DNA from: Hyaloscypha bicolor E
Taxonomy: Eukaryota; Ascomycota; Leotiomycetes; Helotiales; Hyaloscyphaceae
Reading direction: 5' to 3'
Assembly: GCF_002865645.1 (NCBI RefSeq)
Contig: NW_020194675.1
Coordinates: forward strand, 1 to 64,000
DNA: 64,000 bases
In this document: piece after piece, positions 931-61,282 of the stretch
Numbering within the stretch: the first letter of the stretch is position 1
Layout: each line of letters starts with the position of its first letter
Notes under the pieces: model-generated
The model's input: the letters and a program-made list of their open reading frames with translations, nothing else
What the model was told of the DNA's origin: nothing
Databases searched by the model: none
Program-made: the position numbers and the translations under genes

Positions 931-1239
931 ATTAAGGTCTAAAAATGGGGGGTTTTGGTGGGAAAAGGGTGTGCATTCGCTTGGGGTGTGCATTGACTAG
1001 GGATCTCGGTTACCGGATCATGTGTTTACGCGCGATTACTTATGTTCAATTTCACCGGGATAAACACAGGTGCATGGTTGATCACAATCCTCGCAGAACA
1101 CCTTCAAATGGGTTTCAGAATCTCCGAATTTGAGTTGCACATTTACCTTCAATTGATCTACCGAGCGAGAGTCACGCCTCAACGACTGGGTCAATCGAGC
1201 AGACAGTATATTCTCTCTAAGCAGCCAAATTGCCCCCAG

Positions 1240-2501
1240 TCAACCTGGAACAACGAACACATCGCCCTCGGAGCTGATATCAACTTTCTCAATTTGAAGT
1301 CCCTCACACTTCAGAGCATCTGCGATCTCTTGACCTTCATCTTCACCGGTATCTACCCCGAAAATGGACCCCGTGGAGAAGGTCTCGTAAGACCACCGTC
1401 GATCGAGGAGTCCTTTTGAGATTTTGGCAAGCCGAATTGCCCAAACTATCCAAATCATCAACATGTCTTTCTTGCCTTCAATGCCTCGGTCATGACAAAA
1501 GAACGAGCGGGCTGACTCTTCAGAATGTGCATGATGAAAGTGCACATTATGAACAGGATAAACTCAGTCTTGCTTGGCAATTGGGACCAAGGGATGGTAC
1601 GAGATCTCCACCCGTAAATTGCCGACGAAGGAGCACAGCTTGCCAGAATGTGCGAGACGAAGTAGTACATTATGGCCAGTATAACTTTATCCATCTTCCG
1701 TCGCTTGAGGTGAATGGACATTGCAAGCATCGCCCAGAATATACATGCAGAATGAGCACGTTATACTTACTGAAGTCAGTCGTGATTTGAGCATTAGTCT
1801 TGACTTCTGTCTCGTTCAAGATTTTCGCATCAAGTCCTGCGCTGGCAACTCCAAGGAAATCACTACAGTAATAGTCAGCTGTGTGCTCCTCCTCCGGACT
1901 GTTGGCAACGTGCACTCCGGGTCCGCTATGCACATCCCGCGTTCTCACTTCTGACGTTTTGGACTTGGCACCACGAGCAACAATAATACCCGTGATCATG
2001 AATATAGAGGAAGACTGAAATAGTCCCAGCTTGGCTAGGTAAGCTCTGGTCTCATTGTCTTCAATACTATCTTCCACATATGCACCCGTAGGTTGGAAGA
2101 TGAACGTGTCGAGGGAGGTGAATTCCCAGAAATTTCGGACTAATGGACAATATTAACATAAGGTACAGTCCAAGAAGGCGTTTTGAATGTGCAACTCAAT
2201 GTCACACATTAAAAACACCCCTGGGAAGACTCCTGGCGGCTAAATACAAAACCTCGTACGGATCCGGTTGTATTCAGCATCTGTGGAGAGTCGTACCTGT
2301 TTGTTTGAAAGCCAAGCCAGCATCCAACTTTCAATGTCAGAGCTCGGATCATGATTCTGGACCACAACAGTCATGCAATACCTTGATGGTCAGTCCTGCC
2401 GCAGCGGCAATGGGCACGCCTGTGTTTGCGGAAAATTCAACACCCTGCGTCTTGTTGATCTCGAAAGTAAGCTCCCGAGCCTTAGTTGGGTATATAGGCA
2501 T
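1240..2501 (-). CDS. Gasdermin-like pore-forming cell death protein (RCD-1/HET-Q1 type)
   Basis: Four exons can be joined in frame: 2501-2382, 2327-2297, 2139-1771 and 1445-1240, giving about 241 residues, close to the 230-280 of fungal gasdermins. The first intron has a CTGAC branch site and an AG end. Visible landmarks are an N-terminal beta-rich stretch (KARELTFEINK), a second strand ending LAFKQT, a WEFTSLDTFIFQPTGAYVED block, FMITGIIVARGA, and DFIWAIRLAKI followed by a short acidic tail ending VVPG. This order recalls fungal gasdermin-like proteins, which oligomerise in membranes after a protease removes the C-terminal tail. The start is uncertain: the frame is open to about 2570 but the first ATG is at 2501. 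Intron 3 is unusually long (325 bp). The gene diverges from the protease gene on the plus strand, as in het-Q1/het-Q2. The call rests on motifs and context; a profile search has not been done. Confidence 0.62.
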
Positions 2502-3127
2502 GTCTGGCGGAACGTCTAGCGGGCCGTGCCGATTTATGACATTGTCCAGATGCTGCAAATCTGGTATGAGGTGCCCTAGGCAAATAGGACCTGGAGCATG
2601 TCAGCCTTTTAAATCTTAAATGGTCATGATCGGATGGTTAGAGCACTCTAGAATTTATGCGTCCTTGCCAGGTTGGATTCTACATAAAATTACCACTCAA
2701 AGTGTACAAGACTGACTTGCACACTGAAGAAAGAAACTATTTCACGGACGAAGCGGGGCTGCACTGATGAGTTAGAGAATACAACGGGCTTACCGCTGCC
2801 ACTCACATGCCCGATGCCGTTTTTCGGAATCGCTGGAGGGGGGTAATGTGTCTGCTTAAGGACGAACCAACACTTTGAAGCCATTCCTTGATGCTGAAGC
2901 TCGATCAAAGCGAGACAGGTTGATCTTGAGCATGTCGTTGTTGATTTCAGCCGCACCTCTGTCAGCCCCACCAACATCAACTGGCAACTTTAACCGAGCG
3001 CAATGTCTCCAACGACATCCACTACCAAGATGACGAGCAGACGAGCAAACCAACGGCGAAGCAAACGAACCTCTGAGACCTCGAGCCGCCGCCGATGCAA
3101 GGACACAACAAAGCATCCGATCTCTAA
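2502..3127. promoter_or_regulatory. Divergent intergenic region between gasdermin-like and protease genes
   Basis: About 0.6 kb separates the two divergently read genes and should carry both promoters. The upstream non-ATG part of the gasdermin frame (2502-2570) lies here. A perfect branch site and acceptor on the minus strand near 2590-2600 suggest a possible extra 5' exon for the gasdermin gene. A short plus-strand frame from an ATG at 3003 ends at 3128 and could be a 5' leader of the protease gene. No core promoter motif stands out. Confidence 0.4.
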
Positions 3128-6100
3128 ATGAGCACGTCGGTATTGCACACTCATGCGGGCTCCCGTATCCAGGCTCGCAGGATGCCAGCGGTGGCATTGA
3201 AAAAGGCTACAGATGAGCCTACAATATCTTTTGCATGCGATGTGATTATTGAGCTGCAAGGAATCGCACGAGAACTTTCAAAGGAGTCAGGAACAAAGGC
3301 CTTCTGCAGTCTGTTCTCGGCTGCACTGGAGAATGTGCAAGACTATCTCACACTTGATGACAGTCCAAGAAATGTTTCCAAGTTGCTGGATAATCTGGAA
3401 AGACTATGCCAAGTAAGGAAATCAAGATTTAACACTTCGCGCATACTGACATATCATAGTGGCCGACCTCTGCTAAGCCTAGGACCAGCTATATAACCAG
3501 AACCGACCATGCACGATATCCTGCCCTAAAACGATTGATGGAGAAGAGGCCAATGGTGAAGAGGGGCATTAAAGATTTCGCATCAGATCCTCGTTCGAAG
3601 AAAGACCGGCAGTCTATACTCAAGTTCTTGAATGGGTTCGGAAGGTCCAAGAAGGATTTACTCGTGGACGTTGCCGACCTGGAACCAACGGATACATCGC
3701 GAGAGCAGCAGGACTACCAGGCGTATATTCGAGAGCTGTACAATACCCTCGCTACGCGCTGCTTGTGTACACGGGGTGGTGGCCGCAAGGAGATATCTGC
3801 CAACCTGCGCTTGAACGGATGCTGTTCTCCCGGAGAGCTGGCTGATAGCGTCAATTTTAGACTGTTCTTTCTGGACCATCCTCACCATCATGGATTGGGA
3901 GATACATGCCAATGGCAAGATACGCAAATATGCGTCTCGCGAAAGAAACACATCAAGATGGTGGGCGATGTCGAGGATCACATTGAACTTTCCAGCACCT
4001 TGGTATCGGTGGATACATTTTGCAAAATCATCACCAACCGCAACAGATCACAATTGGCACGTAAAATCTTTCCCTTCATTCTTCTATCCCTGCAGAGAGT
4101 TTGGAAATCTCGGCAATCCCGCCCTCGTCGATAGGGGAGATGAAGAGACGGGAGTCAAGCTCCGTTAAGAATCTGCGAGCTGGCACTATACCTAAGTGCG
4201 CAGCTTGATCTGGGAGATTCTAATGCTGGCTGTTTGCCCGACCTGCTTCAATATCTTCTCACCTTCGACGAAAACGGACTCCGACTCGGACGCCATTTGC
4301 TGGAAGAAACCCCCAATCACGGCCTCGAAGTGAAGTTCTAGATACATTTGCTAACATTGCTGATTAGAGACTGATGATTTCAGAGGTTGGCCTCGTGCTA
4401 GAGGGACCTGGCAGTCTTTCACAGGGGTTTATCCTAGGCGCGTCGAGCGTCTCACTTGCTGAGCTTGTCATGATGACAAGACTCTCGCTAAAGATGAGAT
4501 TGCTCTTGTCTTATTTCCTCGCCAAAGCTGTGTGGCAGTTTTACGATTCCGAGTGGATGCAAAGAGAGTGGACCAAGAATACTGTCCATTTCATGTTTGA
4601 ACGAAGACCCAAAATGCCGAAAGGAATCTTTATCAACGAGCCTTTCCTTTCCGCCTGTTTCGACGGTCGAAACCAATCTTTCAATCCAGATACTGAGTTC
4701 AGATCACACGGTGAGTGAATTTGCTATATTCTAGCGAGATTTCGTCTTCTAGGATCTGTCGCTGCTTTATTTGCGTCCAATATTGGGTAGCCCGTGCTGA
4801 TGTAATGTCCAGTTCTTCCGAAGATATTGGCTTTGGGTATCATGCTGCTCGAGATTGAGCTCAGAATCAAAATCGAAGACTACCGAATGCCAGAGGATGT
4901 CGATTACAATGGAGAGCCAAACGTCAATGCTGATCATATTGCTGTAAGCACAGCTCCCTTCTCCTGCTGTATTGATACAGGCTCATATTTTTCACAAGGC
5001 CATGGAAGTCTTCAACAATCCCGATCTGTGGGCAGGCAAGGACACTTTTGGCGCTCTCCGAGATGTGATCGAGGCTTGTTTGACCCCGGTCAAGTTCCAG
5101 CCTTTTAAGAATGATATTCCAGGGCTTCGTGACGCGTTTGAAAAGTTTATTGTGAACCCGCTCCACGACCGATACAAGTCTGCATGGGAAGATCCAGACG
5201 TGTCTATCCCCCGGGCAGTCAAGCTCGACCAAACCGGCTCGCCTGCCATGGAAGTTGTCAGTGAAAACACTCCTCCCGTATCGCCGTCTCCCGTGCACAG
5301 TCTACTACATGCTCCGGTAGCAACTCCATCGCATCAAATACCATACCATCCATATCCCTCGTACCTGGGTGGCCAAGGATACCCGCAGTTTCCCTATCAG
5401 CCCATGCAGTAAGTATGCACGTCTGTTACATCCAGTCACATAGCTTACATTCGTTTCAGGTATCCCGTATCACCCTCCGTTACTCCACTGTCAGACGGTA
5501 TCATGTCCAGCAGGTGAGATTCTTGATTACGATGTGTTGTTAAACTAAGCTGATAAAGAAATTAGCTCAAACTTCACGTCCGATGGATGGTTTGGGGAGC
5601 TTGATAAACTAAATTCAGTCCTCCGCCCTAAGCCCAAGGAGAAGGACAATGCGTATAAGCCTATCAAGATAGCAATACTTGATACAGGGGTCAACGAAGC
5701 CTATGCCGACAATGTGAAGGATTACAAGGATTTTGTGAACGAAGACGAAGAAGATTGGGACGATAGTACAACCCATGGGACTGGGGCATTTCTGCTTGTA
5801 CAGCAGATCTACAATATGGCCGAGATCTACGTCGGCAAGGTCTTCGAAAAGGCCCACGCAACGGACGATACAGTCGCCCTCATGACGAAAGCAATACAAC
5901 ATGCCCAGAACAGCTGGAATGTCGACATCATTATAATGCCTTCTGGGTTCAGCTCAGATGACATAGATCTGGAGAATGCTATTGACCAAGCAAGGCAAGC
6001 TGGAATACTCATCTTCGCAGCAGCATCTAACTACGGTAATATGAGCTACATTGCCTTTCCCGGCCGCCTTTACATCGACTTGAAGCTTTTCTGCATGTTC

Positions 6101-6526
6101 TCTACCAATGCTAGTAATCGGGCACTTGCTGCATTCAACCCGTCCGTACTCGGAAAAGCTAGGTACAGCTTCGCCATCCTCGGCGAAGACGTCAAAATTC
6201 CGAGGCAGGAAAAGCCTGTCTCGGGGACGTCTTACGCCGCTATAATCGGGGGTGCTGTCGCGGCTCGCATCTTGGACTTTGCGCAGCATAAAGACAACCG
6301 GGGACGAATCCGGAGGATTGAGAAGCTTAAAACAGTCGAGGGCATGTCGGCGGTATTTGACACAATGGTGGGGAGTGCCGTCGACAATGGATATCGCTGC
6401 ATGGCGCCGTGGAAGATTCTTCCTTCTTATATTAGGGGGGAGGAGATGGGACCGAAAAGATTACGAGAAAGAGCGCATATTTGCGAGACGATATCGCGCG
6501 CACTGGAAGAAATGCACAAGAGATGA
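3128..6526 (+). CDS. Subtilisin-like (S8) protease with N-terminal DUF7580-type domain (HET-Q2-like)
   Basis: Nine exons join in one frame: 3128-3412, 3460-4060, 4096-4163, 4204-4329, 4368-4710, 4813-4943, 4981-5408, 5460-5513 and 5566-6526, giving about 998 residues. Most introns have CTGAC/CTAAC branch sites. The N-terminal half looks like the DUF7580 family of fungal proteins (KDLLVDVADLEP, ELYNTLATRC, SLAEL, RLLLSYFLAKAVWQFYDSEW, ILALGIMLLEIEL). A Pro-rich linker follows, then the peptidase: Asp about 718 in IAILDTGVN, His about 749 in THGTG, Asn about 834 in AASNYG, Ser about 901 in SGTSYA. The full catalytic set is present. There is no signal peptide, so it should act inside the cell. 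Its divergent neighbour looks like a gasdermin, so the likely role is to cleave and activate it. The exon 3-4 region is the least certain part, and an upstream first exon is possible. Confidence 0.78.
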
Positions 6527-6728
6527 CAAGGCCAGCCTCGATTACTGCAAGTCGATTGTCAACATCTCTATCGAAGAAGCCACCGGACTCATGGCGTCTC
6601 GGTGTGCAACAAGTATCGAAAGTTCTCAAATCAAGCTCTGCATTCATCCTTCTCAAAGACAGCGGCACGTCTTGGTATTGATGGAATTCACACACTTGTA
6701 TAGCTCTCTCCTCGAAGAATTTCAAGTG

Positions 6729-8035
6729 TTACCTTCCACATGACCGCAATACACGCACTATGCATAATGGGTGCACCACTACCAACACCACCAGTTCCTC
6801 CCCCTCAGCTGCTTCACATATGACAACCCTTTTGTCGAACGAATCTGCCTCAGGCGTGCCGCACTTCACTAGAGCCGGCGCACAAAACAATGTTACGGGC
6901 GCCCTTCTCTGGACCAAGAAGTCTTCCTTTGCTTCTAGATCATCGGCTTCCATCCAAGCAGGATCAAATGGCAGAGGTCTGGAGAGCGAAATGGCGTCTA
7001 CCTCGAATTTGAAAAACGCCTTCTGCTTCCAAAAGAGAAGGTCGAGATCTATGGCTCGTCGAACGATGTTCAATAACGTGGACTTCCGTGGATCTTGATT
7101 GCGAATGCCGAATACATCTCTTTGGTCCGTGTAGGGCTTTAATTGTGGCTTCGTCATACTCGTCAAGGTACTGATTCTTTTCTCGACGCATGCTTTGTGA
7201 ATAGCAGAGATTTCCCAATGATTCGGGCTATCTGGGACCTCCAAAGGTGATAATCTCTGCTCCGAGATGGGTCCTTGTTGGATTCTGGTCCGGGCTCTAA
7301 GCTGGGTCAACTGAAATACTGGATCACTCACTCACTATACGTCATGTCGTCGAGGCACTTGTAAGATTTTTATAGGTCGCATAAGTTGATTCCCTTTTGT
7401 TAATCCGCGATGCAATACCCTCCCATCCAAACAGGTCTTTGGAAAACCTTATCTAACAGCTTCATCCAGACAAATCCTTGGACGAGGAGCGAAGTTCACC
7501 TTGGGTGCCTGGTGAGGTAGTGATCATACTCGCTCGACACCTTCTCAAAAGGTCTCCCCGGTTCATCACCTGCAATCAGTGTTCTCAATACTCCTCTGGA
7601 AGAACGATTGAAATTTCTGCTCCATTGTCGTACATCGGCTACCACAAGATCTCTATCTCTTGCAATCTTGTCGTCGCCGACTCTGTAAGGATCATTCGAG
7701 TGCATTGAGGCAGATCTCGTAACAAATTCGTCCAACTGCATATGTGCTACCATAAGCTCGTTTTGGAGTTCCGCAATTGTCGATTGCGTGGTTGGCTTTC
7801 GTGCAGGTACATCTCCAAGATGCGGCGCTTGTATGCCACTTTCAGACCTGTTTCTCTCTGGGAGTGAGGGACGAGATTGTGGTTGAGATGTTCGTTGGCC
7901 ACTCGTCTGCAGAGTCGACCCATTGTTGCTCTTCGGTTTGTCGTGAACTGGTGCACTTGCGCTAGAACCAAAAGAATCAATACGATCCGATTGAGATCTT
8001 GTTGGAGGTTGGCTGTACTCGTCGTAATGCCCCAT
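6729..8035 (-). pseudogene. Decayed fungal-specific gene of unknown function
   Basis: The minus strand carries an N-terminal part (8035-7496: Ser/Gln-rich start, then coiled-coil TIAELQNEL, YRVGDDKIARD and DVRQWSRNF) and a C-terminal part (7331-6729: LLNIVRRAIDLDLLFWKQK to the end). These resemble a fungal family with the order YRVGDDKI, DVRQW, LVQAFVW, then a helical C-terminus. I do not know its function. Between the parts the same frame continues with LLVQGFVWMKLLDKVF but has stops at 7496-7498, near 7400 and near 7372. Each can be read as an Arg or Gln codon changed by C to T. I call it a pseudogene that keeps most of its length. It could be live only if an odd intron removed these stops, and I see no good splice sites. 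Confidence 0.6.
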
Positions 8036-8361
8036 CTTTCAGAATTTCAGATGATTTCGAGAGATCGTGTCTTTCTCCTCTTAAGGATGTCAGAGAGGCA
8101 GGCGGGGAAGCAAACTTGGAGGAAATGTTCCTCCCACTTGAGAAGGCTGAGAGCTCCACATGCAAGTCCATGTCCGAAAACACCTGCATTGTCGTGGAGC
8201 CTTACTTGTGCGACATTGTTTCGCCAAATCAGTGGTTCTGCATGATGGCTGCATACAATCCCTTGCCATCCTTAAAGATCGTCGGAGGCCTTTACACACA
8301 CTTATTTGTAAGTGTGCAATTTCGGGATTCCTTCAAATGACAACTTGATACCTACAGAACG

Positions 8362-9455
8362 ATGTCTCGCAGCACTATGAATCCAGATAACAGGGAGTGG
8401 GAGCGTGTTGATGAGAAGATGATACTTGTCATGCGCTTGACCGGAGCTGGGAAGTCATACTTTATTCAACAGCTTACGGGCATGAATGTCAGTGCTGGCC
8501 ATGAACTCAAAGTGTGTATGTCGTTTCCCTCGATATCCAGGATTTTCCCCCTCCTTCGGTGTGATCGGAAAGGATATATGCTTGGAGCCATATCTTATAT
8601 TTGGCTAACTTTGTCGCGGGGACAGAAAAATGTCAAGTCATTCAGACCAGTATTGGCAACACAGATTTTGCAATCATGGATACGCCGGGATTTGATGGTA
8701 CAACTCGCAGTGACGCCGAAATTCTCAAAGTCATCACCGAACAACTCTCCATCATCCGTCTCGGCTACAACTTGAAGGGCATCGTCTATCTCCACAGGAT
8801 CACGGACAATCGGATGGGAGGATCGGCAATGCGAAGCCTGGATATCTTCGAGAAGCTCGTCGGAGAAGACGCATTGTCTAACGTCGTACTTGCGACAACA
8901 ATGTGGGGCAATGTTGTAGACATTGCAGCAGCCAATCGCAGGGACAGTGAGCTTCGTGAAGAGTACTGGGGGAGCATGAGGAGACGGGGTTCCACTGCGA
9001 CAAGATTCGACGGCACACGAGAATCCGCTCGGGCCATCGTGGAACAATTACTTGGGAAGAAGGCCGTTGTCCTCAAGGTGCAAGAAGAACTTGTCGATCG
9101 AGAGATGTCGCTAAATCAGACTGCAGCAGGGGTATTACTAGAGCTGGAAGTCTACGCCGAGGCGGAACAGATTCGGAAGCGCCTTGAGCAACTGGAATCG
9201 GAACTGAAGTACGAGAAGGACAGCAACAAGCGATTGGAAGTGAAACGCTCACAGCGACGCAACGCAAAAGCATTCTCGCAGTGCGCCGAAGACAAGAAGA
9301 CGATGAAATCAAAGCCTGGCGTAGAAGTGAAGGGGAAACTCAAGAAGTGGGCGGAAAGCGGCGGGAAAATTGGGTTGCAAGCTCTTCAGGGACTGGCAGC
9401 CATTGTCTCGATCAGTTTCGGTATCGCAGGATTTATCTTGGGGGCTGGGTTTTGA
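8362..9455 (+). CDS. AIG1/IMAP-like GTPase with C-terminal hydrophobic tail
   Basis: Exon 1 starts at 8362 and holds a P-loop (RLTGAGKS) at about residue 27. After an intron of roughly 8515-8626 (branch GGCTAAC, acceptor GGACAG) the protein goes on with IMDTPGFDG (G3), GIVYLHRITDNRM and VVLATTMW, the pattern of fungal AIG1-type GTPases. A charged coiled coil (about 9150-9300) and a hydrophobic tail of about 27 residues ending GFILGAGF follow, suggesting membrane attachment. Related proteins in plants and animals act in immunity. Two oddities: the first P-loop Gly (GxTGAGKS in relatives) is Arg here, and I could not find a donor/acceptor pair that joins the exons in frame without making a stop. 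The gene may therefore be weakened or broken. It lies 1.8 kb after the protease gene on the same strand. Confidence 0.65.
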
Positions 9456-10042
9456 GGTTTCTAATTTCGTTGGGGTCTTCAGGACGAGACCAACGCTCTC
9501 GGGGCAGACAGATCCGAAAGACTGTCTGCCCCGTACGATTGTCGGATAATTCGATTCTGCCGCTCCGCACTGCTTGCTATCTTAATTAGTATAGTAAGCC
9601 CGCAATCTCAAGATCAGCCCACATATATTATTTATTTACTCCATCCACCACCGGTATGAATCTTTGTCGTTGAGTTTTGCTCCCAGGGGCTGATATCTAG
9701 ATTCAGGGACGACAGCGAAGACAAGAGAGAGATATAAAGGTCAATCCAGAGATATTTTGACCATTCCGTCTGCTTTCTCAAATGAAGTCAATAGCATAGA
9801 CTCAGATTTGTCGTCGGACTTCCCAGACAGTACATATATCAAATCTCTTTCTGACGGGAGCGAAATTACCGGGAGAGATGGCGATAGGCGTTTGCCCGTT
9901 ATGAGAATCGTAAGAACCGACGGGGTGGTTTCGGAAGATCGCAGCCCACGGCGCCTTCTATACGCGCCAGAAGAGATAGATATCGAGGATTTTCCAAACG
10001 TTTCTGAGATCTGTATTTGATCCCTTAGTACATTGGACGAGC
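9456..10042. other. Intergenic; no supported gene
   Basis: This holds the 3' flank of the GTPase gene and the 5' flank of the split HET gene. An 87-codon plus frame (9757-10020) overlaps a 104-codon minus frame; both are Ser/Asp-rich and match no family I know. A 22-bp inverted repeat (GGGGCAGACAG...CTGTCTGCCCC) near 9499-9532 could form a hairpin, possibly a transcript end. Confidence 0.4.
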
Positions 10043-10566
10043 TGATCCATCCCATCTGTCAATACGAGCGGTTTGGGAATCGGGCGCTATTTGGGCTAAG
10101 CGAGGGGCCCGATTCGCTAATAAAAAGGCCTAATTTTAAAATAATATATAACTTTCTAATAAAAAGCAAAGGCTAAATTTTAATTAAATAAAAAACATTA
10201 ATGCTTATAAGAAACTTAGAGGAGTATTACCTAGATTAAATTCTATTAAAGATAAAAAGATTTATATAATTATATATTTTAAAAACTATTTTATAATTAA
10301 AATTATATATAGTTCTAATAAAAGGCTTTAGCTAAAATTACTTAAATAGTATTATTAACCAAATTATTTTTAATAGATCCTACTAATAGAATTTTATTAA
10401 TTTATTAATTTGAAAATATTATAATATTTTCAAAATTCGCTCGTATCCGACCTCGGATTTATGAACCGGAGCTCGCTTAAGTAGACGATTAAGCAATCGG
10501 GCCCCTCGCTTAGCCCAAATAGCGCCCGATTCCCAAACCGCTCGTATTGACAGATGGGATGGATCA
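10043..10566. mobile_element. Non-coding element with about 75-bp near-perfect terminal inverted repeats
   Basis: The left end reads TGATCCATCCCATCTGTC, then AATACGAGCGG and TTTGGGAATCGGGCGCTA. The right end is its exact reverse complement, finishing at GGATCA. The arms run inward for about 75 bases, to AGGGGCCCGATT on the left. The 370-bp core is AT-rich and has no frame. This is a foldback or MITE-type element. The true ends and target duplication are unclear because the symmetry runs to the last base; a palindromic GATC lies at both ends. It sits in the 5' flank of the HET gene. Confidence 0.8.
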
Positions 10567-10824
10567 GATCTGCAGGCAACTTTGCCCACATATCATTTTG
10601 AGATAGTTGTTACGGCCGGAAATAAAACCTCGTCTTTTATTTCCACATCAGCACAGTTAGAGAGGGTGAGCTTTTCAGTCATTATTCCTCGTCCAATGTT
10701 TCCGAGCGTCAGCTATTTCGCCGCCATAAATGAAGACACGCCATCAGATTCCGGCAAAAGCCCTAGGTGGGAGATCCTGTTGGCGTCTTTATTAGAGCTT
10801 CCTATAATTTCAGGTAGCTCTCAA

Positions 10825-11333
10825 ATGGAGCCTCTCATAACGGCGAACAGTTTTTCGGCTTTGGATGGGGTTAAGCTACTTCCCGATTATCTTCACCAAC
10901 GACTGGACAAGCAAACCATACGACTAATCAGTATATTCCCGGGCGATGCAAAAGACCGGCTCCAGGGAATAATTTTCCACACACCTTTCGATTCTGCCGG
11001 AACTTACAGGGCACTTTCCTACGTATGGGGTACGGATGAACGAACCCACTCGTTGAGTACACCAGATGGGACCTTTTGGATTACCTCCTCTTTGGATACG
11101 GCGCTTCGCCGCTTACGGCACAAAAATGATGCGGTAGTGTTATGGGTAGATGCTATTTGCATTAACCAACAGGATAACGCTGAAAAGTCTCGCCAGATAC
11201 GCCTTCTACCGAAAATATTTCAACAAGCTTCTTCCACTTACGCTTTCATAGGAGAATGTGAGAAGTATGACAGTGCCATGGAGACCCTGCTGCAGATAAG
11301 AGCGAAGCAGACGTATGATAAAAGACCCAAAGA
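10825..11333 (+). pseudogene. HET-domain protein, 5' part (split by transposon)
   Basis: From the ATG at 10825 the frame reads a typical HET protein start (LLPDYLHQRL, IRLISIFPG), then the domain motifs YRALSYVWG and VLWVDAICINQQDNAEKSRQ. HET proteins trigger programmed cell death on non-self recognition between fungal strains. The frame is cut at 11333 by the transposon at 11334-18488. The downstream part resumes in the same frame at 18497 once one copy of the 8-bp duplication is counted. An upstream start is possible, since the frame is open from 10582. Confidence 0.85.
11326..11333. repeat. Target site duplication, left copy (CCCAAAGA)
   Basis: CCCAAAGA stands directly before the left transposon end CAGTGTGTCAAA. 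The same eight bases follow the right end at 18489-18496. Eight-base duplications are typical of hAT transposons. Confidence 0.9.
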
Positions 11334-12745
11334 CAGTGTGTCAAATGAATAGAGTAAAATAGAATAATGGCCACTACTCTTATTTTAGTCAAGTATAAAA
11401 CCCGTTACTCTTATTTTATTCATATATTATTCAAGTTATTCATGAATATTCTTCCTGAAGAAAGACGGTCCCAAAACACGCTAAAATCGCGGCTCGCTTA
11501 ATCCAGCCAATGAGAGAAAATCACGTGTAACCCGAGTAATATTAAAATATTGACTTACTATACACAACTCTATAAATTACAACTACGATAACACCACGAT
11601 TTACGAACCAAAAGAGCCCTTTAAGACTATTAAAATGCAGTGGCGCTTTATATTCCCCTCTGGACTAGTCATATAAGGCTGGAGCTGGCTTGTCTTATAG
11701 TATTAGAGCAATATATAAGGCCAAAATACCCCCCCCTCATCTTTAATTTTCTTCGAAAATTACGAGAATCTGACCTTATATCTCTTTATAATAATAGAAT
11801 TAATACTTGGAAAGCTTAATAAAATAGCCAAGTACCTGGTATAATGCCTTTACTTACTAATTCTGATCCTACTAAGTATTTGCGGTAAGCTAAATTCCCC
11901 CCACTTCCTCCTCTCTATTTCCTTTAGTTCCTGAATAAGAAACTAATATAATATATAGGGCAGATATATTCCTAAAGAGAAATAATAGTATTACCTAGTA
12001 TTTGGGTACTATAAAGTATTATTCGTGCCGTAAAAGTAGTACTTCTATTAATATAAGTTTCCTAAATTTAGCCCTAATATTTCTCGAAAATTTCAAGAAT
12101 TTCTTATTAATATATTATACTTTAGGTCCCTCAATTACCCTTCCGTAAGAATCGTCTTTATTATAGCTGCCGCTATAAAGAGGCCTTTCTTAAAGCCTAT
12201 CTTATTTGCTATAGATAATTAGGCCCTAATTCTATTACTAATACGCTAAATACTTTACCTAAAGATATTTGCAATATAATTCTTCTTCTTTTACAAGATT
12301 AACTCGGCCCTAATTTCGATATATACTAACTTTTAAGCGCCTAAGATCGCCTAGCTAATATTTAAAATAGTGTAGTTAATAGTATAATTATTAATCTTTA
12401 GGTCTAAGGGAGTTTAGGGCTAAAACTAGAGTTTGAAGTTTGCTTTTAAGATATCCCTAAGCTAGTATTACTTTTTATAATACCCAAATTCTTTGTAATT
12501 ATCGAGAAATTATAATAAATACTAAATTTAGGCTAAAAACTGCCTTCTTTTAAGTGCCTTCTTTATATAATATTAATTTTTCGAAATTCTTCGAAATTTT
12601 CAAAGCAAATTATTATTACTTATAAATATTAATTTAAAATATAAATTATATAGGTCTTTAAACTAAGCTTATATATAGTATTTAATAATAAGAACTTGAT
12701 TAAGAAATTTAATAAAAGTTTTTTTTAAAAAAAGAAAACTAAAAA

Positions 12746-12845
12746 TTTCTAAAATAATAATTTCTAAAATAATAATTTCTAAAATAATAATTTCTAAAAT
12801 AATAATTTCTAAAATAATAATTTATAAAGTAATAATTTATAAATA
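12746..12845. repeat. Tandem 15-bp AT repeat inside the transposon
   Basis: TTTCTAAAATAATAA is repeated about six times, the last copies drifting to TTTATAAAGTAATAA. It is a minisatellite in the decayed body of the element. Confidence 0.9.
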
Positions 12846-14266
12846 ATTATAATATAATATAAGCTTATATATAAAACTTAATAATAAAGACTTAAATAAA
12901 ATCATTTCTTTAAAATTAGAATTTTATTATAATATAAAAAAAGAATTATTTAAATTTCTTTCTTATTATTATTAATTTTATTATAAAATTTTATTATAAT
13001 ATAAGGAGAAAACTCCCTTAAACCCCTCTTTTATTATTATTTATTTTATTTTAAGATTTATTTATTTTAGGATTTATTTATTTTAAGATTTATTTATTTA
13101 TTTAACTATATAAGTCTTTTAATAGAGTTTTTTTTAATTAAAATAAAATTCTTAATTTAAATCTTTTACTTTTAGAATTCTTAAATAAAATATTAAAATT
13201 AGATTTAGTAATTTCTATATTAGGCTTAATCTTAGCTTAATAAAATTAAATAGCTAATTAAGCTATATTAGCTCTTTATTAATTTAATTAAATAAATTAT
13301 ATTACTAGAAACCCTCGAAATTTTCGAAGAAAATAAATTATATTACAAGAAATCCTCGAAATTTTCGAAAAAAATAAAGTATATTATAACTAAATTACTT
13401 ATAAGCTCTTAGCTAATTCTCTCTCTATATAGCTTATATCTTTTTCTCTTAAATTTCTCAGGCTTTAGAAAGTTCTCCCAAGGATTTATAGGATTATTAT
13501 TAATCTCTATTAAATAGTAAATAATTATTAAGTTATTAAAATTAGTTAATTACCCTCCCTAATTATAAAGCTTCCTTATTACTTACCCTAGAATAGAAGA
13601 GAAATACTAATAGCCTTTATAGCAGAAAGAATACATACTATAGAGCCTAGAATCTAGGTCTATTTTAACTAAGTAATAGTAAAAGAGCTTAAGAAAAACC
13701 TTAGCTATCTAGTACTAATTAGTTAAAATCCTTAAAAATTCCGAGGAAATCTATTATACTCTTTCTAGTTAGGCCCGGATTAATTACTTAATTAAACTTA
13801 TTAATTTTTCGAAAGAGAAACCCTTTTTTAATTCTTGCTATATACTACTAGTAAAGAAGAGTATAAACTAGATCTAGCTATAATTTTTCCCGGTTATAAT
13901 ATAAATAGAAGAGCTTAATTTCTAAATATTATATTAGTTATAGTAATTCCTCGAAAATTCCGAAATATTTAGAGCTAGTAACTTATTACTAGTTTAGTAA
14001 GTCTTGCGAAAGAGTAGACTAAGCTTAATTTTACCTGTTTTCCTAGTTATATTAATAACCTTAATATAATATATCTTAATTCTAAGAACCTTATTAAAGT
14101 AAAGTATATAAAGAAATATAAGAGTATATACTATATAAAGCATTACCTGCTACCGGTAACCTCCCTAGTTTATTAAGTTATTATTATTAAGGCTAATAAT
14201 AAAGCCTTAATTCTTCTTTAGTATAGGGAACCTTATATTCGATTTATAAAGGCATTTAATAATATC

Positions 14267-14538
14267 TTTAGAAACTGCCTTAATACTTAAGGAAATCTCC
14301 CCTATATGAACCTATTTCTAGTTAATTAAATTGGCTCGAAAATTTCGAGAGAAATTACTTACTTTTTTCCTTTATAAGCTTACTATATATCTATTTACTT
14401 TATTTAGAAACTGCCTTAATACTTAAGGAGATCTCCCCTATATAAACCTATTTCTAGTTAATTAAATTGGCTCGAAAATTTCGAGAGAAATTACTTACTT
14501 TTTTCCTTTATAAGCTTATTATATATCTATTTACTTTA
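14267..14538. repeat. Tandem duplication of a 136-bp unit inside the transposon
   Basis: The unit starting TTTAGAAACTGCCTTAATAC occurs twice, the second copy beginning 136 bp after the first. The copies differ at only a few places, all seen as A/G or T/C changes (AAGGAAATC/AAGGAGATC, ATATGAACC/ATATAAACC, CTTACTA/CTTATTA). Each copy contains GGCTCGAAAATTTCGAGAG. Confidence 0.9.
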
Positions 14539-15639
14539 TATACTAATAAAGGGTTTCTATTTCATTTATTCTTTCCCCGGTTCTTATACTTCTAGTACCC
14601 GCACCGAAAATCACGAGTAAAGCCCTAACTAAAAGCCGCTTTTATCTTTAAGGTATGAAAGTAAGAAGTATCTTTAGTATTTTCCTTAATCTCTTTATTA
14701 TACTTCTCCCTAGTAGCTCGATTCTCGCACGCATTTATAATTCAATAAATAATATAATGCGGTATATAAGCCCTAATTTCAAAGTATTAATTATAGTACC
14801 GGCTACCTAGTACCTTAATATAGGCCTTAAAGCATTTCTAAAGCCTAAAGAAAATTCTTATTAATTTCGAAAATTTCAAGGAGTTATACTTATTAATTTA
14901 CCTTTTATAGTTCTGAACTATTAATTTCACAAGCGCATCTTTAGTTAGTATTATAGCCGCCTTCTTATTTTACTTAAATAGCCTATTATTCTTATTCTCT
15001 TCTTTCTCCTTCTTTAATATTAAGAGTATATTAAGCTTTAGCTATTTCTGGGCCTCGTTAAGCTTATCCTATATATCCCTCTTTAAGTTAAAGTTATCCG
15101 GCTCTTACTTCTTTACTGCCTTTTATTTTTGGTTCCAGGCCTTAAAGATATTAACTTTATAATTAGTTATTGGAATCTTGAGACTAGTAAGCTACTTCCG
15201 CTTTATATTATTTCAGGATTACTTAATATAATAATTATTTACTATAAGCAGATTACGGTAATTTGCAGGAAGAGGAAGTGCCTAATTAGGCTAGTAGAAG
15301 TCTTATAAATTAGGCTATATAGAGAGAGAGCGGAACTGCTTTATATCTGCTATATTATAATTGCTTCGAAAATTTCGAGGGAAAAGGGGCTATTTATAAG
15401 GCGTGGTTTAGCTCGAAAATTTCGAAGAAAATAATAAAGTATAAATATCTATAAGTGAAATAATAAGAAGCGAGGGGTTATTATTTATTTATATACTAAT
15501 TTAGTATAAAATAATAATCTAATTTCCTACTGCATTACTATATTAATAGTACTATCTTCTATACTTTATATTTCTCTGTCTCTATTTACTACTATTACTA
15601 CTTATTATATCCTTAGTATCTTTTAATATATCTTCGCCC

Positions 15640-17330
15640 GCCTTTTTCTCTGCCTTTATTACCCTAAGCAAGTTGCCCTTAAAGCGGAAGGTCTCTACTT
15701 ATATAAAGAAAAGCATTATATTATTCAAGAGGCAAAAGCTTAAAGGCAGGATTCCTGTATAAGGGGCCATATTTACAGAGACTAGTAAGGGCAAGAACCG
15801 GTATACTTCTGAGAGAAGTAAGATTACTTGCTAGGCTAATAAGTATATAGCCCTGGGCAAGTAAATACCTTTAGAATATGCCGCTTTCTAGAGAAGTAAA
15901 GATATAGAAATTTTCGAAATTTTCGAAAATTTCCTGCCCTTATATGCTTTGCAAATAGTATTGGCCCCTTGCACTTCTAGTAAAAGTCAGTCTGCTAGCA
16001 GGATAATTACTATTAGGTACGAGAACTATATTATTTTCTCCTTAAGCCCAAACTTTAAAGAAATACCTCAGGAGATTATTTAGTAAGCGGCACTTATAGC
16101 TAGAAATAAGATATTAGAGTCACTTATCTCTATTATAGAGGAGTATATAGCAAAAGCACCCTTTAATAGCCTATCTAGCCTACCGCAAAAGTTCAAAATT
16201 AATGACTTAAACCTGAAGTATACTATAGATAATATTCCTAAAGTTCCTACTATTACCTATACTATATAGAACTACTACCTGATTTCTTAAGACTAGAAGG
16301 CTTTAGTATACCTAGTAATTAGGGAAGTACCTATTTCCCTAAAATACTAGGCAGAGATCTATTAAAAGAAGCCTATAGCAGAGTACGAATACCGGCGGAA
16401 TAAGTAGAGGCTCTAGAAAATAGGCTCTCTTAAATTTGCGAAATTTTCGAAATTTTCGAAGAATTTACTAACTTCTTTTTAGAATATTCTTATTACCTTC
16501 CGCCTAGCGGGCTCTAATTAGGATACTTTCTATAAGTAATATACGACTATTAGACTGCCTAATAGAAGCTCCCGTCCCAAAAGCAACTTTAATAAGATCT
16601 ATATTAGTATTGCGGCTATACGGAAAGTAGAGGATATAGAGTATATTAGGCTTGCGAGGCAGAAGTATATTTAATAGAAGTTTAAGAAGCACTTTAGCTT
16701 CCGCAAGAATAGAAAGATAACTATAATAAAGGAAGTATAAGAGATTACTTGCCGGTATAGAAAATATAAGAGAATTGCTTCTATATAGAATAAGTACTTT
16801 AATTAGTATATATATACTTTTTTCCTCAAAAATTTCGAAAATCCCAATATAATATACTATAACTTTATAAACTATAAAGTAATTAAGAATTATATAAGAA
16901 TAGCGGACTAATAGGAATTAAAGGAGCTAGAAGTGCCCTTAATAGAGGCAAAATCTTCGGGGATAAGGCCAGAATATAGCGTGGGGAATAGGAGAAAAGA
17001 TGCGGTCCCAAGTGAGACCGCACCTTGGGACTATATTTTTTTCGATTTCCTACCCGTTTACGCCCTTTCCACCGCAATTTTGTATAGGCCCCACTACCGC
17101 AGAAAGGATATTTACAACAGGAAAATTACGGTCCCAAAATACGCTAAGGGAGCGGAGATAAGGTGGTTATTTACCTGGCCAAGGGGGGGGTTAATGGGCG
17201 CGTCTCGCTTAAAGTACTATATATGTAAATCCGATTTTTTTCTCGGCCGCCTACGGCGGCCAATCTTTAATAATATTAAGTATAAGCCGCGGGTCAAAAT
17301 CACTATTGGCTTCTGCTCTTTCAGAATCTA
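15640..17330 (+). pseudogene. Unrecognised decayed coding trace inside the transposon
   Basis: The plus strand gives broken but protein-like runs such as FKINDLNLKYTIDNIPKVPT near 16190-16250 and EVPISLKY near 16325, split by TAG/TAA codons that could have been CAG/CAA. A 132-codon open frame lies at 16933-17331. I do not recognise the family. It may be the remains of a transposase or accessory gene; it could also be chance frames in a skewed sequence. Confidence 0.3.
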
Positions 17331-30031: not shown

Positions 30032-30359
30032 GGCGCGAACTAGCCTGCGTTTGGGATTTTGTTCGACCGGGCTGAGAGAAAGGAACAACTTTCTCTGGTC
30101 TCTTATTGTCAGCCCTTCCCTATCGCAAGGCAGTATTGATATTTTCCCACAGTATCTCAATCAGTCACCAGTCACTTAGTCAAACGAGAATCTGCAGGGT
30201 GTTAGAAGTGATCGACACTTCGAGGGCTGTCTTGAGATCACAACCTATTCTCAACGATTGGGCTAAAGCCTATAATCCAGTGCCTAGCTTATCAGAGTCG
30301 TCGAAATCTTCCCCAAATACACTGTCCAGAAGTCGGGGACCTGGTGGTTGGCCTTGAAA

Positions 30360-32391
30360 ATGTCCTCGATCCTCATGTCCACCCCCGGAGAAACGATTTG
30401 CGAGAACTGCTCGGACTTAGATTTGCGTGGTATCTTTGCAGGCAACTTCGAGATGGAAGACAGATTCATTTCCCGGAAGAGTGGTACTTCTGTGAGATGG
30501 GCTTGGAAGCAGACGAAAGATTGCCAATTTTGCAACTTCATCGAGAAATGCAGCGTTTATCGTACGGTTGTGTACGACCCTCCAGAGCTTGATGCCCAAC
30601 TCGAGCCGAGATGGTTGAAGCGCGAGCATTCTAGGTGGTTCGAACTCGGAAGGGAGGAGCGGATTTTTCGACTGGTCTTTGATACATCTCCATCAGAAGA
30701 ATCTTGGTTGGATCATTCGCGGCCCTCAACTTCTCCCCCACACTCACTCATTGGTTGCACGATGTCAGACTGGCATCATAGCGAAGTGGGTAGAAGTTGC
30801 CCAATTCGGTTGATTCCACGGCTGATAGAATCCTTCGATGTTCTTAGGAAGAGAATTGAAACCTGTCAAGAGAGCCATTCGTGCATGCAGCACGCTGGGG
30901 GCCAAGAGCCACCCAAATCGATTCCGAATCTGTTGCTCATTGACTGCATAACTTGTCGGGTAGTTGCTGCGCCAGACCACTGTTGGTATCTTGCACTGAG
31001 CTACGTGTGGGGAAATCAGAAGGCGAGGGCTGTACATACTGGAGAGAAATTGTCGTCTCTGCCTCAGACCATCGAGGATGCCATTACCGTCACTTTAAAA
31101 CTTGGCTTTCAGTATTTGTGGGTCGACATGTATTGCATCAAGCAAGACAATCAAAATCATGTCGGAGATCAAATCAGACATATGGATCTTGTCTACCGAA
31201 GAGCGCGAGCCACGATCATCGCAGCAGCCGGTGAAGAGCCCGACTTTGGACTTCCTGGTGTGAGCTCTGTGCGATAGACCCGACAAGCCTGTGCCACGGT
31301 TAACGGAGTCTCTGTGGCAAACTTCACACACGATCCTTGGGAACCTGTGGACTCCTCGGCCTGGAACTCTCGCGCCTGGACCTTTCAAGAAAGCCTGTTC
31401 TCTCTGCGCCGAATATTTTTCACTACAGAGCAAACGATTTACAGCTGCGCATCCGGATGGAACTGCGAGGGCATCGAGCCTACTCAAACATTAACTCTTC
31501 AGGGCGCAAATCGAAATCTAAATTCGATGGTACGACATGCGCCTCCTACCTTCAGCGACCATTATTCCAATAGTATGATTTATATTCTGATCAGACAGTA
31601 CAGTCGTCGTCAGCTTACCTTCTCCATGGATATCTTGAATGCTTTTTCTGGGGTTTTGCATGCTTACGAGAATCTTACTTCCCCTGTTAGACATTTTTGG
31701 GGCATTCCCATAATTCCACATGAGCGTTCTGTACTGGAGAGCTTCAACATGGGCTTGTCCTGGGAATTTTCCGACACTGCAACATTTTCCCATCAGACCA
31801 GTCTTCCCAGGCGAGAGACCTTCCCCAGTTGGTCTTGGACGGGATGGGAGCACCCAGTTTTATACAAGAATGAGCACATTACTCGCAAGGAATACTTGCC
31901 CCCACCTGAGCTTAAGATTGCTATCAGGATTACTGATGGGCCGCATATGCTGTGGCTAGAACTTGAGCATGCCACCATGAAGGGTCAACACCATCTTTCC
32001 GAGACAAAATATCTCCGGCTCGAAGCTTGGACTACCCAAGTCGCGCTTCATTGTCCTGCAGAAGAAACATCCACCCCTTTCAAACGGGCGCATTGGTCCA
32101 GAAGGAAATAGTTATAAGTTCCATGCACAAATTCCAATTTCCCAGAACAGCGCAGAACTGGAACCAATGGAGAAATACGATGATACATACTTGTGCACTG
32201 GTATCCTCTTAGGTGGGTTCCGGTTCAAAGAATGGTCCCTCGAGATTGAGAATCCGTTATTACTTGTCGCGAAGCGAGGTGATTTATGGGAGCGAATCGG
32301 TATAACATATCTCAGAGAGGTGGCTGAGGTCTATCCACTAGGTAGAGCCAGCGTCGAGATTCGTACCAATTCAGGACACGGGATACGTTAG
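30360..32391 (+). pseudogene. HET-domain protein with one in-frame stop and a frameshift
   Basis: From the ATG at 30360 it reads ETICENCSDLDLRGIF and DCQFCNFIEKC (the Cys-rich start usual in long HET proteins), then WYLALSYVWG, YLWVDMYCIKQDN, HMDLVYRRARATIIAAAG and, after a TAG at 31275-31277, ACATVNGVSVANFTHDPW, NSRAWTFQESLFSLRRIFFT, FPSWSWTGWE. The stop lies in the same frame as the coding on both sides, in a place where relatives carry ordinary residues; CAG-to-TAG would explain it. Near 32070-32110 the reading moves to another frame that continues to 32391 (GILLGGFRFKEWSLE, WERIGITYLREVAEVYPLG). HET proteins act in vegetative incompatibility. An unusual splice could rescue the gene, but none is convincing. 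Confidence 0.8.
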
Positions 32392-59128: not shown

Positions 59129-61282
59129 ATGGAACCACTGAGAAAATGCATCGAACGTCTCCAACTTCTTGGAGAAGTCTGTCCAGGTTGTGGAATTGGG
59201 TTGGGATTAGGAGGGGAGGAAATGTATCGCTCGTCCCTTGGCACATTGCAAACATCGCGGAGGGCCGGTTGTCCAATATGTTGCATCATTCTCGACGGCG
59301 TCAACGAGTTTGACAGCAAGTGGACCGCGAAGCATTCTATTCACACGCGAATTCAAATTTGCTGGAATCCTAGAAAGTATGAACGGGAAGGATTCTTGGT
59401 CTGGTTGGCTGATGATCAGGACGTAATGAGTCCAACCTTTCGGATACATGAGGCTGTTGGTTAGTTCATCCCTAAGCTGCAAGCTGCAGTCCGACTGACT
59501 GATATCCACAGATGAATCTCATCTTGGAGCTGATGCCTTGACACCCCTCCGTGATATTGTCGACGACACTAGGTCTGACCTGACTTGTAGACGTATCTCG
59601 CAATGGCTTGCAAGATGCGTAGAGCATCATGATACTTGCAAGGCTAAAGCTAACTTCACCCCTACTCGGGTAATAGCCGTGGGGTCTTCGGGTGATAATC
59701 AAGTAAGACTTATGAATGCCGTTCCCAAGCAGCCGTATGCTGCCTTGAGCTATTGCTGGGGCAGCGCTTAGACGGGGTCGTTATAACCAACACATGGAAC
59801 TTCCAGAGACACTGCATAAGCATCGTACTCAATTCCTTGGCTGCCACCATTCAGGACGCAATATTTGTCTGCCGTGGTCTAGGCATCCACTTTCTTTGGG
59901 TTGACGCACTCTGCATTATTCAAGATGACGGCAACGATTGGCTGCGGGAATCGGCGCGTATGCGGCTTGTGTATTCGAACGCGTATTTGACTATTGTCGC
60001 CCACAACGCCGCATCATCTAAGGAAGGGTTCTTGGGCAAGCAATTCTTTGGACAACCAAGTTGGCAGAGGCGATTTTGTAGCAATCGTGCGCGATTACAA
60101 CGGAAATACCACTTACGAGTTGGAATCGTGCCTTTCAGTCTCGAGATGTGGCAAGAGTTCTCCAAGGTCGAAGAACGGGGTTGGACTTTGCAAGAGTGCA
60201 TTCTCTCTCCACGCCTTGTACACTTCACAGGCTTAGAACTGGTATGGGAGTGTGAGCAAGGGCCATCTCTCTGCGAATGTGGGCATATGATGGCGTGCGG
60301 GGCGGCAGGCCAACCGACCAAAACTCAGTTCTCACAGTATGGGATAGATAACATTACAAATCAGAGTTGGATGAGGTTGGTTGGGGATTTCACAAGCCGC
60401 AATCTCTCACGCCAATCTGACAGGCTAATAGCATTGTCGGGGCTGGCGGAGATGGTTTACGCCAGGACCAACAAGACACGCACTTATTTGGCAGGCCTGT
60501 GGAGCTCGAATCTTCAAGAACAGCTTCTCTGGCATTCGTACAACACCCAGCGATCCCGCCCGTCACCACCGACTGCTCCGAGCTGGTCTTGGGCTTCACT
60601 TGGCACCCCCATCATGTGGGAGGGTCCCTGGATGGAACTTGGTCTCTCACAAGTCGAAGTTCACTACGACGAGTGCTTCTGCAATCTCCTCGTCCAGAGC
60701 AATGCTTTCGGAGCGGTCACTTCGGGGGAGCTCGCAATAGAAGGCTTCGTCCAGGCGGTTTGTGTAGTTACTGTCGAAGCACCAAACAGCGCAAGCTCAG
60801 ATGCGCAAGAAAGTGGTCTCACGTTCCTTGGAGCGCCGAATGGCGTGAGGATATTTGTCTTCTCTGATTTGAGTCACGCCATAGATATCCAGAGCGCAAA
60901 CCCTCGTGCGCAGTGCTGGCGAGGGCATTGTTCCTCGGATGGCGATGGATGGTGCGGCAAGTGCAGACTATCGCCAGAGAAATGGCAGGAGGGAAGATAT
61001 TATTGTCTCCAAGTCGTAGCGAACCCAATCGTGGGTATAACCGTGGGTACTAACTTTTCGGGAGGACCCCCCATTGAAGAGCTTCAATTCTACTTCTTGT
61101 TACTGGAACGGTTTTCAGGTTCTGAGGATATCTTTGAACGGGTTGGAATGGCGGGGTCTGAGTGTATCGATCCCCGCTCTTGGGGGCTTTCTCAGCGATC
61201 AAAGTCACGAAAGGATAAGAGCGGGGAAGATATTCTGCCCTTCTTCCCGGATGCAGAGTGGAAGAAAATCCGGATTGTCTAA
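59129..61282 (+). pseudogene. HET-domain protein with one frameshift
   Basis: Exon 1 (59129-59459) reads VCPGCGIGLGLGGEEMYRSS and CPICCIILDGVN. An intron (59460-59511, branch CTGACTGAT) joins it to DESHLGADALTPLRDI, ISQWLARCVEHHDTC and YAALSYCWGS, the start of the HET domain. There, at about 59758-59770, the frame must shift by one base to go on with DGVVITNTWNFQRH, TIQDAIFVCRGLGIHFLWVD, LCIIQDDGNDW, RMRLVYSNAYLTIVAHNAA, ERGWTLQECILSPRLVHF and the long C-terminal region to the stop at 61282. The C-terminus is open over 500 codons, so the damage looks recent or could be a sequencing slip. If the shift is an error, the gene is intact (about 700 residues). The role would be non-self recognition and cell death. 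Confidence 0.82.

Follow-up and report, generated by a model that had tools for sequence, protein, structure and literature searches.

Close described counterparts of the locus reported here come from Podospora, where het-Q1 and het-Q2 are idiomorphs, that is, alternatives at one locus (excerpt of PMC12881547). HET-Q1 is a protein of 278 amino acids (aa) with F238 as its P1 residue, behind which 40 residues are lost (excerpt of PMC10989679). Across fungi, ~80% of gasdermin genes lie beside a protease gene and ~63% beside S8 genes, according to an excerpt of PMC10197012, and the nature of the stimuli that trigger gasdermins is called a major open question in the excerpted text of PMC12881547. 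We analyzed 64,000 nucleotides of Hyaloscypha bicolor E (the window, C67:1-64000 in our numbering), which begin at base 1 of contig C67 in a genome of 82.0 Mb and hold a gasdermin gene next to a gene for a subtilisin (S8) protease. We put the probability that this pair is a two-gene regulated cell-death unit at about 0.78. It is well supported that the pair fits the published two-gene unit of a sensor-protease and an executioner, and that it belongs to the known fungal gasdermin/protease class, of which it is a fresh example and not a new system. A literature search for gasdermin together with Hyaloscypha gave no report of this locus; the single paper that came up, on het-B, concerns something else.

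The gasdermin and its C-terminal tail

The minus-strand gene is spliced from six exons, and its product of 284 aa is identical at every residue to the annotated Hyaloscypha bicolor E protein K444DRAFT_619940 (P0001). Its introns measure 203 (2793-2591), 54 (2381-2328), 157 (2296-2140), 51 (1913-1863) and 325 bases (1770-1446); the fourth is the only one of the five with GC-AG borders. The original prediction, made from the DNA letters without database searches, had given the protein about 241 residues, which is too short, and had quoted three gasdermin-like blocks, all of which are present.

Its assignment of the gene to the gasdermins holds. A phmmer search of solved structures, with our first 296-aa gasdermin model as a single-sequence query, gave chains of Neurospora RCD-1 as the only confident matches (8jyz_A, E = 7.3e-36; 8jyz_B, 7.2e-35; 8jyx_A, 1.1e-33; 8jyy_A, 1.1e-29), the fifth and final row being a chance match (E = 0.29). 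Structure comparison with RCD-1 and other gasdermins, which had been proposed as a check, points the same way. When an AlphaFold model built with 37 aligned sequences (predicted local distance difference test, pLDDT, 66.7) was compared by Foldseek, the RCD-1 pore ranked first (8jyz_B, E = 2.9e-20), followed by a bacterial gasdermin, a Trichoplax gasdermin, GSDMD and GSDMA3, with perforin-like proteins interspersed lower down. Based on homology to RCD-1 and on the predicted gasdermin fold, we conclude that the gene is a fungal gasdermin. A homologue search yielded 91 proteins including the query, and the named ones among them we take to be from ascomycetes.

The 8jyz_A match spans residues 3-251 of the 296-aa model and so stops at residue 239 of P0001, 45 residues short of the C-terminus. 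Shortly behind this point lies F245, whose column in the 37-row alignment contains 27 Phe, 5 Leu, 1 Tyr and 4 gaps. The 39 residues after F245 form an acidic tail of 4.05 kDa with an isoelectric point of 4.05. As in HET-Q1, a large hydrophobic residue, here at the predicted P1 place, precedes a short tail at the C-terminus. Because the tail agrees with that of HET-Q1 in place and chemistry, protease cleavage after F245 is the predicted switch.

Recurrent pairing with a DUF7580-subtilisin gene

The two genes are divergent, as predicted, with 297 bases between their start codons, where the proximity limit for Q2L proteases is <10 kb from a gasdermin gene. The intervening DNA is likely a shared promoter region. 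A search of the genome for gasdermins gave nine matches at four places (more distant gasdermins may have escaped), and a tblastn search located a DUF7580-S8 gene within ~2.5 kb at all four. A search for DUF7580 itself gave 21 matches, spread over about 20 places in the 82 Mb, four of these places being beside gasdermins, and the chance of such a neighbourhood at the three further loci, counting 5 kb on each side, is about 1.4e-8. The two pairs on C73 (C73:96196-99129 and C73:1134365-1138018; L014, L015 and L017) are distant relatives, with gasdermins 29% and 23% identical to that of the window. Beyond this genome, 14 of the 91 gasdermin rows are apparently co-located with one of 89 protease rows, as judged by source sequences of equal size, and the locus tags of two named pairs directly follow one another (GJ744_004803/004804 and OIDMADRAFT_170236/170237). 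The expectation that gasdermin genes often neighbour protease genes is thus borne out both at other loci of this genome and in other fungi.

If the two genes were unrelated and neighbours by chance, the orientation of the pairs could be expected to vary, and it does: divergent in the window, same strand at ~2.4 kb on C70, convergent at 96 kb of C73 and same strand at 1134 kb of C73. However, the linkage recurs, at 4/4 loci in this genome, in the 14 apparent co-locations elsewhere and in the published clustering near 80% (excerpt of PMC10197012), and we therefore regard chance as very improbable.

The protease model starts at the ATG at 3182; a further in-frame ATG lies at 3128. In Pfam, the first spliced model matched DUF7580 (E = 1.4e-15) and Peptidase_S8 (E = 2.6e-6), and positions 4368-4718 alone matched DUF7580 at 4e-6. 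The full Asp/His/Asn/Ser set that had been read from the DNA is in place in the 908-aa model as D628, H659, N744 and S811. A metagenome protein with 47 member sequences is identical at 314/320 positions over the S8 part and keeps these four residues, so the S8 half, active site included, occurs in nature.

Both genes had been called intact and in frame. For the gasdermin this is certain; for the protease it rests on the splicing out of a long stretch. The frame is lost if 4057-4367 is retained and open if either 4057-4367 (GC-AG) or 4061-4383 (GT-AG, 323 bases) is removed, the second option giving a product four residues shorter. Removal of the stretch as a GC-AG intron yields the relatives' junction SQL|RLMISE. 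Nine aligned proteins of relatives have zero residues corresponding to 4057-4367, in a comparison to which introns in their genes would be invisible; the C70 copy, the only DNA compared at this site, is continuous, with no intron there. Two other accounts of the stretch were rejected. Three mini-introns (35, 40 and 38 bases) inside 4061-4367 also open the frame and were used in the first protease query, but this model was dropped because the nine relatives lack the residues it would leave. Against a gene captured in reverse orientation, the longest open run on that strand is 52 codons, versus 65 on the forward strand.

Proposed action, history and candidate sensor

As a cell-death unit, the pair would act as follows. 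The gasdermin would be expressed as a silent pore-former, restrained by its short acidic C-terminal tail, and the neighbouring gene would supply a putative sensor or regulator part (N-terminal helices and DUF7580) fused to a subtilisin protease. An internal danger signal would activate the protease, which would cut the gasdermin after F245 and release 39 residues, and the freed N-terminal part would assemble membrane pores that lead to hyphal cell death.

Several results weigh against this proposal. A Pfam search of the gasdermin gave no gasdermin family, just unrelated sub-threshold matches. In the gasdermin model, pLDDT is <50 across most of the tail, and the comparison with HET-Q1 is based on published numbers and not on an alignment with HET-Q1 itself. 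To stay open, the protease frame needs either an intron of 311 bases whose GC donor is unusual or one of 323 bases with GT-AG borders. Protein searches with the protease, which admitted lengths of ~261 to 1746 aa and were limited in scoring to the 7996 candidates with the most words in common, returned no row named from Hyaloscypha bicolor. Since the protease is seemingly missing among the named proteins returned for this fungus, the pair could escape a survey that relies on annotation.

The loss of the frame when the stretch is kept and the missing Hyaloscypha bicolor row are also what one might see in a decaying subtelomeric copy, in which the gasdermin is still readable, the protease is interrupted by the 311-base stretch, the unit is dead and the C70 pair is the working one. 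The absence of a counterpart of the stretch from the nine relatives and of an intron from the C70 copy would fit such decay, as would a C70 pair that has fewer introns and is 80-84% identical to the Oidiodendron pair. In contrast, the flanks of the stretch join in frame at two splice pairs, one of them yielding the relatives' junction, the remaining protease introns splice in frame, and the metagenome protein preserves the S8 part with its catalytic residues. Weighing these, we consider decay unlikely and retain the reading of a cell-death unit.

The gasdermin on C70 (C70:599809-600741) is 67% identical to that of the window over residues 1-187 and 49% over residues 188-282. Oidiodendron maius has the nearest relatives of the C70 pair (80% for the gasdermin, 80-84% for the protease), and in trees of 16 pairs, which include several fragment rows, C70 and Oidiodendron are sisters for both proteins (100/100). 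The window gasdermin groups with Coniochaeta (85/81), and an open fork joins the window protease to Endocarpon, Coniochaeta and Clonostachys (81/91). Because support for these two placements is weak, we claim no transfer. The window pair is a second pair that diverged earlier than the C70 pair.

Only one intron position, that of 1913-1863 after about residue 187, is common to the two gasdermins. The other four introns of the window gasdermin are absent from the C70 copy, apparently through gain in the window gene or loss in the C70 copy. An introner family comprising gasdermin introns 1, 3 and 5 (203, 157 and 325 bases) and the 311-base stretch was considered and rejected as a repeat family: intron 5 and the 311-base stretch, the two of the four that were searched for in the genome, each occur once, a hairpin pattern derived from intron 5 occurs at one genomic place only, and the eleven introns have no long mutual similarity. 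When RNA structure was compared with shuffled sequences, intron 3 alone stood out, with a long hairpin (z = -4.0; 0/200 shuffles as good), introns 1 and 5 and the 311-base stretch being unremarkable. A transfer RNA search in intron 1 found none, and Rfam gave one chance-level microRNA match.

Within the pair, the candidate for a sensor is the DUF7580 part. The structural model of P0092 has weak matches to Ser/Thr kinases from viruses (best E = 8.6e-3, probability 0.96), which suggests that DUF7580 may be kinase-like. A sequence-profile search of the domain in PDB and Pfam found no protein kinase, the only PDB profile row being pantothenate kinase (E = 1.6). Another search around the DUF7580-S8 protein barely tested the parts outside the protease; the matches listed were subtilases. 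An excerpt of PMC12881547 names kinase-like domains among the partners of gasdermin-linked proteases, and a literature search for DUF7580 gave no report. It is conceivable, if rather doubtful, that DUF7580 is a kinase-fold sensor, probably catalytically dead, fused directly to the protease that activates the executioner, and that it represents a widespread family of fungal danger sensors. If so, this fusion would combine the roles of receptor, scaffold and caspase in a single protein.

Subtelomeric setting and comparison with described systems

The location next to a telomere, also predicted, is confirmed by the repeat array that Tandem Repeats Finder (TRF) detects where the window and the contig begin (Table 1).

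Table 1 Features of the gasdermin/protease locus in the window
Feature	Position	Strand	Basis or remark
Telomere (CCCTAA)n, contig end	1-95	.	TRF: CCTAAC, 15.8 copies, 100% match
Gasdermin gene, six exons, 284 aa	1240-2884	minus	Spliced product = K444DRAFT_619940
Gasdermin exon 1	2794-2884	minus	Spliced match to K444DRAFT_619940
Gasdermin exon 2	2382-2590	minus	Spliced match to K444DRAFT_619940
Gasdermin exon 3, 31-base micro-exon	2297-2327	minus	Spliced match to K444DRAFT_619940
Gasdermin exon 4	1914-2139	minus	Spliced match to K444DRAFT_619940
Gasdermin exon 5	1771-1862	minus	Spliced match to K444DRAFT_619940; preceded by GC-AG intron
Gasdermin exon 6, encodes C-terminal tail	1240-1445	minus	Predicted cut after F245
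Gap between both start codons (2884, 3182), 297 bases	2885-3181	.
DUF7580 + subtilisin (S8) protease gene, 908 aa in GC-AG model	3182-6526	plus	Homologue-guided splicing
311-base stretch without counterpart in relatives' proteins	4057-4367	plus	Removable as GC-AG intron, or 4061-4383 as GT-AG
Part of DUF7580 domain, exons 4368-4710 and 4813-4943	4368-4943	plus	DUF7580 profile match
Subtilisin S8 domain, Asp/His/Asn/Ser	5566-6526	plus

GC content is 0.47-0.51 over 1001-10000 and 0.20-0.32 in two AT-rich blocks (1-1000 and 12001-17000, the latter with tandem repeats), which in our view resemble subtelomeric DNA affected by repeat-induced point mutation. Frames at 8341-9455 (plus) look like a P-loop GTPase, with a GAGKS motif seen by eye and only a sub-threshold dynamin match in Pfam. 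Three plus-strand frames with HET domains (10465-11352, E = 4.9e-23; 30288-31274, 9e-27; 59699-61279, 2.7e-21) place several incompatibility-type genes within 64 kb at this chromosome end.

The original prediction had seen a locus of non-self recognition here. As a vegetative-incompatibility (het) locus, it would have gasdermin or protease alleles that vary by strain and kill fused cells, and the HET-domain genes in the same window, the subtelomeric position and the composition of Podospora het-Q (a gasdermin plus an S8 protease) would agree with this. However, het-Q1 and het-Q2 replace each other at a single locus, whereas both genes of the window stand side by side in cis in the assembly; non-self recognition is therefore unsupported, and we judge it quite unlikely. 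The gasdermin, the S8 protease, their divergent telomeric arrangement and the recurrent pairing remain from that prediction, and are read here as parts of a cell-death unit. Together with the three further loci, the pair offers material from a root-associated fungus with which the triggers of fungal gasdermins can be tested.

Similar pairs stand in Endocarpon pusillum (GJ744_004803/4) and in Oidiodendron maius (OIDMADRAFT_170236/7); they have the same domains and consecutive tags, and their identity to the window pair is 62%/56% and 56%/53%, respectively, at differing coverages. Unlike the window, and compared as proteins, neither has a counterpart of the 311-base stretch. RCD-1 of Neurospora crassa resembles the window gasdermin in the sequence and fold of its pore-forming part, but the match ends before the tail, and RCD-1 is activated by an encounter with its other allele and not by cleavage. 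HET-Q1/HET-Q2 of Podospora anserina shares a gasdermin of similar length, a tail of ~40 residues behind Phe and an S8 protease; it differs in that its genes are idiomorphs in an incompatibility system, and not neighbours in cis, and in that HET-Q2 has 388 aa versus 908 aa, with DUF7580, for the window protease. In the clusters of Q2L proteases and fungal gasdermins, as excerpts of PMC10197012 and PMC12881547 describe them, the protease is accompanied by ANK/TPR/WD40 repeats or an NLR core, whereas the window has DUF7580; 18 architectures have been counted in the literature. These clusters and the window have in common a gasdermin beside a multidomain protease, presumed to be sensor and activator.

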